Source: Variovorax paradoxus (lineage in GTDB: Bacteria; Pseudomonadota; Gammaproteobacteria; Burkholderiales; Burkholderiaceae_C). Taken from it: 64,000 nt of DNA. Location: contig CP063166.1 of the NCBI GenBank assembly GCA_016806145.1, positions 868,001 through 932,000 of the forward strand, written 5' to 3'. Positions within the stretch are counted from its first letter, which is position 1, and every line of letters begins with the position of its first letter. Below the pieces are notes generated by a model that saw nothing but the letters and a program-made list of their open reading frames with translations, was not told the origin of the DNA and made no database searches. The position numbers and the translations under genes are program-made. Positions 9,692-12,405 of this stretch are shown piece by piece.

Positions 9692-9765
9692 ACCTCCTCT
9701 GTTTGTGAATGAGACCGCTCCCGGCCGATGAAAGCGCGCCGGGCCGGCTTTCCGGAGAACGACAC

Positions 9766-11268
9766 GTGATCACCGAACTCGAATTCAAGAGCCTCAGCGC
9801 CCAGGGCTACAACCGCATCCCGCTGATGGCCGAGGCCTTTGCCGACCTCGAAACCCCCCTGTCCCTGTACCTCAAGCTGGCCCATTCGCAGGGCGGCGGC
9901 AAGCACAGCTTCCTGCTCGAATCGGTCGTGGGCGGCGAGCGCTTCGGCCGCTACAGCTTCATCGGCCTGCCGGCGCGCACCCTGCTGCGCGCCAGCGGCT
10001 TCGGCGCCGAAGCCGTCACCGAGGTCGTGACCGACGGCCAGGTGGTCGAGACCGCCGCGGGCAATCCGCTGGACTTCGTGGCGCAGTACCAGAAGCGTTT
10101 CAAGGTCGCGCTGCGGCCCGGGCTGCCGCGCTTCTGCGGCGGGCTGGCCGGCTACTTCGGCTACGACACCGTGCGCCACATCGAGCGCAAGCTCGAGAAG
10201 AGCTGCCCGCCCGACACGCTGGGCTGCCCCGACATCCTGCTGCTGCAGTGCGAGGAACTGGCGGTCATCGACAACCTCTCGGGCAAGCTCTACCTGATCG
10301 TCTATGCCGATCCGAAGCAGCCCGAGGCCTATGCCAACGCCAAGCGCCGGCTGCGCGAGCTCAAGGAGAAGCTCAAGTACTCGGTGAGCGCGCCGATCGT
10401 GAAGCCCACGCAGCCGCATCCGGCCGAGCGCAGCTTCGCCAAGGCCGACTACCTCGCGGCGGTGGAGCGCGCCAAGGAGATGATCGCCGCCGGCGACTTC
10501 ATGCAGGTGCAGGTGGGGCAGCGCATCAGCAAGCGCTACACCGAGTCGCCGCTGTCGCTGTACCGCGCGCTGCGCTCGCTCAATCCCTCGCCCTACATGT
10601 ACTACTACCACCTGGGCGACTTCCACGTGGTGGGCGCCTCGCCCGAGATCCTGGTGCGCCAGGAGAACACCGGCGAGGGCGAGCAGAAGATCACCATCCG
10701 CCCGCTGGCCGGCACGCGCCCGCGCGGCGCGTCGATCGAGCTCGACAAGGCGGCCGAGGTCGAACTCATCAACGATCCGAAGGAACGCGCCGAGCACGTG
10801 ATGCTGATCGACCTCGCGCGCAACGACATCGGCCGCATCGCCAAGACCGGCACGGTGAAGGTGACGGAAGCCTTCGCGGTGGAGCGCTACAGCCACGTGA
10901 TGCACATCGTGAGCAACGTCGAGGGCACGCTGAAGGACGGCATGACCGCCATCGACGTGCTCAAGGCCACCTTCCCGGCCGGCACCTTGACCGGCGCGCC
11001 CAAGGTGCATGCGATGGAACTGATCGACCAGCTCGAGCCCACCAAGCGCGGCCTGTACGGCGGCGCCTGCGGCTACATCAGCTACGCGGGTGACATGGAC
11101 GTCGCGATCGCGATCCGCACCGGCATCGTGAAGGACCAGGTGCTGCACGTGCAGGCCGCGGCCGGCGTGGTGGCCGATTCGGTCCCCGAGCTCGAGTGGA
11201 AGGAAACCGAGGCCAAGGCGCGCGCGCTGCTGCGGGCGGCGGAGCTTGTTGAGGAGGGGTTGGAATGA
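9766..11268 (+). CDS. trpE: Anthranilate synthase component I
   Basis: The 500-residue product converts chorismate and ammonia to anthranilate, the first step of tryptophan synthesis. The N-terminal regulatory part has the LLES motif in FLLESVVGGERFG, the tryptophan feedback site. The chorismate-binding part shows GDFMQVQVGQRI, IRPLAGTRPRG, ERAEHVMLIDLARND and the PAGTLTGAPKVHAME catalytic segment. The start is taken as GTG 9766 with GGAGAA seven bases upstream; an in-frame ATG at 9709 lacks a ribosome site and would overlap the leader structures. Its TGA overlaps the ATG of the inserted GxxExxY gene rather than trpG. Confidence 0.95.
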   Translation: MITELEFKSLSAQGYNRIPLMAEAFADLETPLSLYLKLAHSQGGGKHSFLLESVVGGERFGRYSFIGLPARTLLRASGFGAEAVTEVVTDGQVVETAAGNPLDFVAQYQKRFKVALRPGLPRFCGGLAGYFGYDTVRHIERKLEKSCPPDTLGCPDILLLQCEELAVIDNLSGKLYLIVYADPKQPEAYANAKRRLRELKEKLKYSVSAPIVKPTQPHPAERSFAKADYLAAVERAKEMIAAGDFMQVQVGQRISKRYTESPLSLYRALRSLNPSPYMYYYHLGDFHVVGASPEILVRQENTGEGEQKITIRPLAGTRPRGASIELDKAAEVELINDPKERAEHVMLIDLARNDIGRIAKTGTVKVTEAFAVERYSHVMHIVSNVEGTLKDGMTAIDVLKATFPAGTLTGAPKVHAMELIDQLEPTKRGLYGGACGYISYAGDMDVAIAIRTGIVKDQVLHVQAAAGVVADSVPELEWKETEAKARALLRAAELVEEGLE

Positions 11269-11714
11269 ATTCCGAATACGGGCAGCCGGACGCAGAGGAC
11301 GCGAAGGATTCGCGAAGGACGCAAAAGGAAGACAAGAATTTTTTAGATGACTTCTCGCACGACATCATCGGGGCGGCTGTCGAGGTGCAACGAGTGCTGG
11401 GTGTGGGCTTGCTTGAAAGCGCCTACGCAGCGGCGTTGGCGGTCGAATTGAATGAACGAGAGCTCCGGTTCGAACGCGAGGTGCCCATCACCGCGTACTA
11501 CAAGGGCCGTAGCGTGGGTGTTGCGTATCGCGCAGATTTCGTTGTCGAGGACTCAGTGATCGTAGAGCTCAAGGCCATCGATGTCCTGGCCGACCTGCAT
11601 CGCGCGCAACTGTTGTCCTATCTGCGCTTGTCGGGACTGAAGCTGGGGCTGTTGATCAACTTCCACGCATTTCCCGTCGTCAAAGGCATCCAGAGAATGG
11701 TGAACAAGCTATGA
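11265..11714 (+). CDS. GxxExxY-family protein (PD-(D/E)XK nuclease-like)
   Basis: The 149-residue product has the name-giving motif G-L-L-E-S-A-Y at residues 48-54. A nuclease-like D91...E101-x-K103 set follows in YRADFVVED and VELKAID, the arrangement of the PD-(D/E)XK fold. GxxExxY proteins are small, widespread and functionally unassigned. About the first 22 codons are made of the left terminal repeat of the surrounding element and read as charged, low-complexity sequence ([10 protein letters not shown]), so the conserved domain starts near residue 26. Its ATG overlaps the trpE stop and uses GAGGAGGGG at 11251-11259, a site that probably once served trpG. Base composition is clearly lower in GC than its neighbours, suggesting transfer. 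Confidence 0.8.
11273..11330 (+). repeat. Left terminal inverted repeat of the GxxExxY element
   Basis: 58 bases that match the reverse complement of 11752-11809 at 53 positions. Inside, the unit GGACGC recurs three times and CGCGAA-GGA-TTCGCG forms a small dyad, so each end could also fold on itself. This copy lies inside the reading frame of the GxxExxY gene. Confidence 0.85.
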
Positions 11715-11751
11715 GTGGAGCCCTGAATTTTCTTTTTCATTCTTCTTTGAA

Positions 11752-11809
11752 TTCCTTTCGCGTTCTTCGCGAATCCTTCGCGTCCTCTGCGTCCGGAAGT
11801 CCGTATTCG
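11752..11809 (-). repeat. Right terminal inverted repeat of the GxxExxY element
   Basis: Mirror partner of 11273-11330. The five differences lie at the inner and outer parts (for example ACTT against GCAG near the outer end), while the central 24 bases GACGCAGAGG... through the CGCGAA dyad are identical. The repeat ends 11 bases before the trpG ATG, so it replaces the trpG ribosome-binding region. Confidence 0.85.
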
Positions 11810-11820
11810 AAAGGCCAGTC

Positions 11821-12405
11821 ATGAAGCTCCTCATGATCGACAACTACGACAGCTTCACCTACAACATCGTCCAGTACTTCGGCGAGCTGGGCGCGGACGT
11901 GCAGGTGCACCGCAACGACGAGATCACGGTCGCGCAGATCGGCGAGCTGATCGCCTCGGGCGTGACGCGGCTGGTGGTGTCGCCGGGGCCGTGCTCGCCG
12001 GCGGAGGCGGGCGTCTCGGTGGCAGCCATCGAGGCCTTCGCGGGCAAGCTGCCCATTCTCGGCGTGTGCCTCGGCCACCAGGCCATCGGCGCGGCCTTCG
12101 GCGGCAGGATCGTGCGCGCGCAGCAGCTCATGCACGGCAAGACCAGCGAGATCACGACCACGCAGGAGGGCGTGTTCGCGGGGCTGCCGAAGACCTTCGT
12201 CGTCAACCGCTACCACTCGCTGTCGATCGAGCGCGCGAGCTGCCCCGAGGCGCTGGCCGTCACGGCCTGGACCGACGACGGCGAGATCATGGGGGTGCGG
12301 CACACCGGGTATGCGCACGACGTGCGCATCGAAGGCGTGCAGTTCCACCCCGAATCGATACTCACCGAGCATGGCCACGCCATGCTCAAGAACTTCCTGG
12401 ACTGA
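11821..12405 (+). CDS. trpG: Anthranilate synthase component II (glutamine amidotransferase)
   Basis: The 194-residue product supplies ammonia from glutamine to TrpE. It is a class I amidotransferase: the nucleophile Cys83 lies in GVCLGHQ, and His176 and Glu178 lie in HPES. The N-terminus [15 protein letters not shown] is typical of TrpG/PabA. The GKTSEI segment and a linked trpE favour the tryptophan role, though a dual TrpG/PabA role is possible. Upstream of its ATG the inverted repeat leaves only AAAGG (11810-11814) as a weak ribosome site. The native link to trpE is broken by the inserted element. Confidence 0.93.

Follow-up and report, generated by a model that had tools for sequence, protein, structure and literature searches.

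A GxxExxY gene between inverted arms at the trpE-trpG junction of Variovorax paradoxus, and its association with dispersed palindromic elements

In a 64-kb stretch of Variovorax paradoxus DNA (contig CP063166.1, positions 868,001 to 932,000; the window), a small gene of the GxxExxY family, flanked by inverted repeats that we call arms, lies between the tryptophan genes trpE and trpG. The locus raises the question of what such a gene does in this operon, and what the repeats have to do with it. We found that the arms recur in the 9.44-Mb genome as gene-less palindromes, that such palindromes go with GxxExxY genes among related genomes, and that inverted arms flank GxxExxY genes in several phyla. 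The reading that we favor, at a confidence slightly above even, is that GxxExxY is a PD-(D/E)XK nuclease that works on palindromes resembling REPINs (hairpin-forming doublets of repetitive extragenic palindromic, or REP, sequences) much as RAYTs (REP-associated tyrosine transposases) would, and that the genus Variovorax also holds a domesticated, probably inactive branch of the family.

The GxxExxY gene (11265..11714, plus strand) encodes 149 amino acids. Upstream lies trpE (anthranilate synthase component I; 9709..11268, plus strand), which also adjoins the gene in relatives, and downstream lies an intact trpG (11821..12405, plus strand); the GxxExxY ATG and the trpE stop overlap as ATGA. In all of this a preliminary description of the locus was accurate, as it was in naming GxxExxY the only gene of the cassette: the list of open reading frames (ORFs) contains no second gene-like ORF there, only mechanical antisense ORFs. 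The best ungapped inverted match pairs a left arm (11270..11335, plus strand), which encodes protein residues 2-24, with a right arm (11747..11812, minus strand); the arms are 66 nt long, identical at 58 of 66 positions (88%) and separated by 411 nt. The repeats are inverted, as described, but the figure of 53 of 58 given for them was not reproduced, a guessed 58-nt register yielding 51 of 58. Local alignment of the two flanks (locus L124) scored 46.0, and 40 shuffles scored at most 12.5; similarly, an arm motif allowed two mismatches had three matches in the window, all inside the two arms, a count that none of 100 shuffles reached. Each arm is built of three to four short repeated units (CGCAGAGGA / CGCGAAGG). 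The cassette also has two distinct ends, type II (GGGCAGCCGGA; 11280..11290, plus strand) and type I (CGGACTTCCGGA; 11792..11803, minus strand), in the order II-gene-I.

The protein is a clear member of TIGR04256 (GxxExxY) and PF13366 (PDDEXK_3): profile searches gave 139.7 bits for the former (cut-off 35) and 135.6 bits for the latter (cut-off 22), its sole Pfam match, and scores so far over the cut-offs bear out the nuclease-like assignment made earlier. Among 46 aligned homologues, residue E51 (the E of GxxExxY; codon 11415..11417, plus strand) and residues E101 and K103 (the ExK motif, E101-L-K103; codons 11565..11573, plus strand) are invariant, and D91 (codon 11535..11537, plus strand) is nearly so. 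A structure model with a mean predicted local distance difference test (pLDDT) score of 88 places a helix, strands, a helix and a strand in the order that we take to be that of the PD-(D/E)XK superfamily core. From sequence and fold we predict that the protein is a PD-(D/E)XK nuclease. Residues 12-22, within the stretch encoded by the left arm, have pLDDT values below 50 in the model; because of this low score, we read that stretch as a DNA end sequence that may simply happen to be translated. The genome carries one PF13366 gene, and a sequence search for a relative of solved structure returned no credible match (best E 0.13). Identity with a known defense gene was considered and set aside, as the protein drew just weak matches to Cas4 (E 0.007-0.03) and PD-T4-6 (E 0.0055). 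Phage cargo was likewise rejected: the gene had no match in 50,697 phage records and seven in 72,556 plasmid records, all below 60% identity, as expected for a resident chromosomal gene, and one weak match in PHROGs (E 0.06).

When the left arm was searched against its own genome, 73 matches were found, which form 34 inverted pairs with all arms facing inward; a single pair holds the gene, and the other 33 are gene-less. Five matches are unpaired, and for four of these a looser motif reveals a second arm. The genome therefore contains at least 33 gene-less palindromic elements of about 145 bp each, ends included; the preliminary description, which had the cassette arms right, missed that most copies of the repeat are such palindromes elsewhere. 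In 29 pairs the two arms lie 10-25 nt apart, in four they lie 46-108 nt apart, and in the gene-holding pair the distance is 411 nt. Thirty fetched loci (L032-L061) comprised 26 distinct gene-less elements, whose cores mostly measure 90-102 bp, with four of 125-186 bp. Element ends fall into two types, I (CGGACTTCCGGA) and II (CAGCCGGA). Both ends could be classed in 21 of 26 elements, two of the labels being assigned by hand: 18 are I/II, three are II-II and none is I-I (permutation p 0.001). Because they share the same two distinct ends, the dispersed copies seem to be derived from the cassette element, minus the gene, which would make the cassette the gene-carrying member of a palindromic element family. 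The one element that was folded (L056, 148 nt) forms a long DNA hairpin (z -9.0). Three dispersed elements (L042/L043, L045/L052 and L051) have an additional GC-rich loop insert of about 80 bp (GGTGGGCTG...), as if a second repeat had landed there or cargo had been gained. Two other accounts of the elements were rejected. Seven loci had no Rfam match at gathering scores, which speaks against a known RNA family. A RAYT as the driver was discarded since each of the 11 genus genomes tested has one Y1 transposase gene (PF01797, RAYT family), with or without elements; at six Y1 loci, no match to the arm motif lay beside the gene.

The dispersed elements are strongly associated with the gene within this bacterial family. 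Among 299 family genomes, each at least 90% complete, 21 carry a GxxExxY gene and 278 do not. Counts of 24 or more matches to a family arm pattern occur in 11 of the 21 gene-positive genomes and in none of the 278 others (Fisher 1e-14, with phylogeny not corrected). These 11 genomes (G000, G073, G093, G117, G124, G147, G160, G247, G291, G311 and G332) have 24-180 matches. A single match was found in each of gene-negative G165 and G343, and 284 genomes have none. Eight of those 284 are gene-positive: the arm-less genus members G031, G044 and G319, the arm-less G070, and G071, G339, G262 and G150, which have other arm sequences. The reversed pattern, used as a control, had 11 matches in G160, one each in G117 and G095, and none elsewhere. 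In each of four genera (g14, g65, g88 and g91), a gene-positive genome with matches stands beside a gene-negative genome without them. In 22 chosen genomes we also counted a looser pattern (reversed-control counts in brackets): it matched 69 (28) times in gene-positive G071 and 0 (1), 0 (0) and 2 (0) times in its genus mates, and 239 (13) times in gene-positive G311 and 25 (0) times in gene-positive G150, compared with 3 (2) times in G241. In genus g29, it gave 169 (83) in gene-positive G339 and 2 (3) in gene-negative G200. The copies listed also resemble the arms of the gene in their own genome (permutation p 5e-5, with phylogeny not removed), these arms being the nearest in six of 10 genomes. 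Two GxxExxY genes of the family, L132 (G262) and L143 (G311), have an in-frame stop, and their inverted arms are still recognizable.

Outside this family, support for a gene-repeat association is moderate. A scan of genome contigs yielded 45 GxxExxY loci from several phyla. With an arm call at a score of at least 16, inverted arms flank 48 of 65 testable loci (family and cross-phylum loci combined) versus one of 121 control ORFs, which were mechanical ORFs from the contigs of the cross-phylum scan; with identical copies removed, arms remain at 43 of 59 loci. The distinct loci L159-L188 (n=27; L186 is from Ramlibacter) pass the score in 15 of 27 cases, L161 and L162 fall just below it, and L165 (G363) is arm-less. 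Arm sequences vary by lineage (CACAGAGG, CACGGAGA, CACATAGG, CGCAGATTA, CGCCAAGG), and a build of three to four short units is common to them. The link between repeat and protein made in the preliminary description thus extends well beyond the locus on which it was based. In G357-G367, 11 genomes that contain loci of this kind, the looser pattern, which covers the arms of neither L172 (G366) nor L175 (G367), gave 48 (1), 73 (1), 71 (2), 44 (19), 29 (18), 57 (12), 62 (19), 142 (46), 58 (0), 5 (0) and 858 (45) matches. In G367, unit-like matches also recur on one strand about every 82 bp as a tandem array (contig C4, 2413-3003). On contig SOIB01000131.1, two GxxExxY genes (L168/L171) lie close together, with CACAGAG-type units nearby. 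A trpE-trpG neighborhood surrounds 34 of 68 family and cross-phylum loci, copies of one genome being counted apart; neither trp gene was found beside the gene in the stretches fetched for L159-L185 and L188.

We asked how old the cassette is at its site. The gene is present in 53 of 61 genus genomes, beside trpE in all 53 and beside trpG wherever the sequence was fetched (all but L098). It is therefore an old resident of the junction, and a recent cassette insertion is rejected. Among the eight gene-negative genomes, six have a short, gene-free spacing with trpE and trpG adjacent, the empty junctions that one would look for in close strains; in the other two (G012 and G046), no trpG scored above the threshold used. 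Of the mobile unit first proposed, the inverted-repeat structure stands and exchange is likely, but the gene is long resident. On a single-locus trp tree, the arm-flanked genomes fall in two places, so that at least two changes are needed, and on the protein tree, where many forks are poorly supported, their copies fall in two clades. Moreover, trpE and trpG of arm-flanked genomes and of near arm-less ones (L004 versus L096 and L025; L005 versus L094) are 88-100% identical in 60-bp bins right up to the cassette. Because of the two tree positions and of trp flanks like those of arm-less sisters, we consider it likely that the cassette was exchanged among genus genomes, by insertion or by homologous replacement, which these sequences do not distinguish. 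A divergent GxxExxY gene with CACAGAGG arms (L122, in G071) also lies at trpE-trpG, a hint that this is a favored site.

Arms and catalytic residues are jointly absent from one clade of the genus. Only four of the 53 copies are arm-flanked (G000, G024, G010 and G048), and 49 are arm-less. In most arm-less copies the stop codon of the gene overlaps the start of trpG, so that a right arm would have no space; among the copies listed, L097 and L099 have 20 nt there. The residues corresponding to E51, D91, E101 and K103 are intact in four of four arm-flanked copies and in none of the 49 arm-less copies. D91 is replaced in 42 of the 49 (G in 37, A in 5), and the seven that retain it have lost E101 (6) and/or K103 (4). 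Since the arm-less copies form one clade on the protein tree (100/98), the arms were probably lost once in the genus, and since different residues are missing, the sequences suggest several later losses of catalytic residues. The arm-less copies contain no stops and have a median ratio of nonsynonymous to synonymous substitution rates (dN/dS) of 0.166 (1171 usable pairs); they therefore appear to be kept for something. As an observation in its own right, these 49 copies (e.g., L006-L031) combine missing residues and arms, purifying selection and a stop that mostly overlaps the trpG start, and might have a function in the trp operon. Pattern matches number 120, 93, 34 and 18 in the four arm-flanked genomes; of the other 57 genus genomes, 51 have none and four have 1-3, G001 and G009 being the remaining two.

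We also compared element sites between genomes, by searching the joined flanks of 12 sites in eight relatives and reading the sequences at some of them. The L035 site, about 180 nt in the V. paradoxus genome, is filled in G024 and G048 and empty, at 32-44 nt, in six arm-less relatives (G050, G059, G009, G015, G044 and G058). The L044 and L050 sites are likewise filled in G024 and G048, empty in G050, G059, G015, G044 and G058, and hold a shortened element in G009. At L057, filled again in G024 and G048, the site is empty in G058, G015, G059 and G050, a 110-nt remnant is present in G009, and G044 has an unrelated 155-nt spacer with no recognizable arms; in the empty G058 site, the stop codons of two genes abut. 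The element directly follows a stop codon at the L035 and L057 sites. The L040 site is filled in G024, and the L053 site is empty in G044, G048, G009 and G050. The L048 site has a left flank with poor alignment, and match coordinates suggest that it is empty in G024. Insertion is more plausible for L053, and perhaps for L048, than for the four sites filled in both G024 and G048. The G048 copies at orthologous sites carry another arm sub-type (TCGCAGAAG), which resembles the arms of the G048 gene itself. Side by side, L292-L294 of G048 and L035, L044 and L050 occupy the same sites, and the arm sub-type is specific to each genome, as conversion in place might produce. The sites shared by G000/G024 and G048 are compatible both with old elements that each genome has rewritten and with insertions that hit one site repeatedly.

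How might these pieces fit together? We hypothesize that inverted arms made of three to four short repeated units are the substrate of the GxxExxY nuclease, both in cis and in trans. A short element would fold into a long hairpin, its paired arms would be recognized by GxxExxY, and cleavage would occur at or near the element ends. Such cutting would let gene-less copies, built as end II-arm-loop (mostly 10-25 nt)-arm-end I, spread to other sites; alternatively, short palindromes at other sites might be rewritten, or converted, in trans. In this scheme the arm-less copies of the genus would have no nuclease activity and would be retained because of some other role linked to trpE-trpG. Cutting of the arms, its part in driving spread, and the fate of the arm-less branch are inferred from the sequence patterns above.

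Several observations weigh against this proposal. The family arm pattern was made from the arms of gene-positive loci, and two gene-positive, arm-flanked genomes (G077 and G207) have just two and three matches to it. In G117, G147, G160 and G332, a genome's own arms are not those nearest to its copies. Among distinct loci, 16 of 59 score below 16 for arms, several of them with an intact ExK motif. The counts of four of four and none of 49 for intact residues are not independent, because the arm-less copies are one clade. G001 (32 matches) and G009 (10 matches) hold only an arm-less, residue-lost gene, and no second PF13366 gene was found in either. On the trp tree, G009 and arm-flanked G010 are sisters; with this placement and the decayed look of the G009 elements, the matches of G009 fit a recent loss, and those of G001 are unexplained. 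Two gene-negative g29 genomes have CACAGAG-type matches to the looser pattern, 59 (29) in G088 and 48 (24) in G276, and no PF13366 gene was found in these or in G200. The G088 and G276 repeats could be relics, or a sign that such repeats need no gene. The 858 matches of G367 are of a CGCGAAG type, which the arms of gene L175 in that genome do not resemble; as the pattern does not cover those arms, the matches belong to another repeat. Finally, L035, L044, L050 and L057 are filled in both G000/G024 and G048, which do not group as sisters in the trp tree, and G009 has decayed copies at L044, L050 and L057 and an empty L035 site. With four sites common to non-sister genomes, an old origin followed by loss elsewhere is just as possible as new insertion, and for most sites gain and loss are not separated; no clear target duplication was seen at the inspected sites, where the flanks have diverged.

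Other explanations draw on the same data. The palindromes could be REPs, or miniature inverted-repeat transposable elements (MITEs), moved by another transposase, with GxxExxY as a passenger that became trapped between a pair of arms. Elements can indeed occur apart from the gene or its arms, as in G001 and G009, G088 and G276, and G367, and the enzymatic role of GxxExxY is a prediction from sequence. A passenger, however, would not be expected to lie between quite different arm sequences in several phyla, nor do high counts of the CGC-type pattern ever occur without the gene in the 299 family genomes; furthermore, the Y1 transposase neither tracks the elements nor has arm motifs beside it at the six loci. 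We thus regard a passenger as unlikely, if the strongest of the competing accounts. A slightly smaller chance goes to the idea of GxxExxY as a structure-specific nuclease for processing hairpins or cruciforms: palindromes would persist because they serve as terminators or as sites of chromosome structure, and the gene would be retained wherever palindromes are many. The long hairpin of L056, the position of elements directly after stop codons at L035 and L057, the purifying selection on arm-less copies, and elements at orthologous sites that arm-flanked genomes retain and that have decayed in arm-less G009 would all suit it, but it leaves unexplained both the gene between arms and the two different ends common to the dispersed copies.

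A homing-like cassette, in which the nuclease cuts an empty trpE-trpG junction, recombination copies the cassette in, and dispersed copies arise as a by-product, would account for arm-flanked alleles in two places of the trp tree with flanks like those of arm-less sisters, and for divergent L122 at the same junction. The cross-phylum loci without trp neighbors argue against it, and within the genus an arm-less copy already occupies most junctions; we consider it improbable. Least probable, to the point of being nearly negligible, is an ordinary inherited gene whose terminator-like flanks have no link to it. Its constant position in the genus would be expected under simple inheritance, but the associations described above (arm flanking, family pattern counts, the split of residues and arms, and resemblance of copies to their own arms) contradict it. 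In a wider form of the RAYT-like proposal, to which we give somewhat less than an even chance, the GxxExxY proteins would make up a second class of REPIN-type mobilizing enzymes, unrelated to the first: stand-alone PD-(D/E)XK nucleases that have spread palindromes with lineage-specific arms in several bacterial phyla and have rewritten them in place, with a domesticated, probably nuclease-dead descendant in the Variovorax trp operon.

If correct, this proposal would provide a function and a substrate for a widespread protein family of unknown role. The accessible portions of papers that name GxxExxY or PF13366 mention the family in passing, with no function or repeat partner, and those of a paper on tagged palindromic repeats do not mention Variovorax or Comamonadaceae. 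A search that left out most subscription papers found no literature on the CTCTGTG repeat, on DEXK proteins with palindromic repeats, on Comamonadaceae miniature inverted repeats or on Variovorax trpE-trpG. The proposal would also name an enzyme for hairpin repeats that RAYTs leave unexplained, and arm-flanked, arm-less and empty alleles in one genus would be a natural experiment on the domestication of a mobile nuclease in a core biosynthetic operon.

Three known systems invite comparison. MITEs of insertion sequences are short gene-less elements that share both ends with a gene-carrying element; similarly, 18 of the 21 classed elements combine a type I with a type II end, as the cassette does. 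Unlike in MITEs, the gene product is no known transposase and the genome has one gene-carrying copy; no target duplication was evident at the inspected sites, although their flanks have diverged. Homing endonuclease cassettes are small units that place a nuclease gene at a single conserved site, and, like them, the cassette has empty and filled alleles at one site, trpE-trpG; its inverted arms and many dispersed gene-less copies set it apart. The closest parallel is the REPIN-RAYT system, in which REP doublets form hairpins and RAYT transposases are thought to mobilize the REPINs (PMC3116915). Both systems have a matching repeat beside the gene, many extragenic inverted doublets that form hairpins (here 34 pairs, with L056 folded), and a repeat type that goes with the gene, from which mobilization in trans is inferred (PMC3116915). 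The GxxExxY arms differ in being about 60 nt long and made of 8-11-nt units, and the GxxExxY gene lies inside one inverted pair. The enzyme is of the PD-(D/E)XK type (PF13366) rather than a Y1 transposase (PF01797), the defining feature of a RAYT, and GxxExxY is therefore not a RAYT; by analogy, it may nonetheless work like one.

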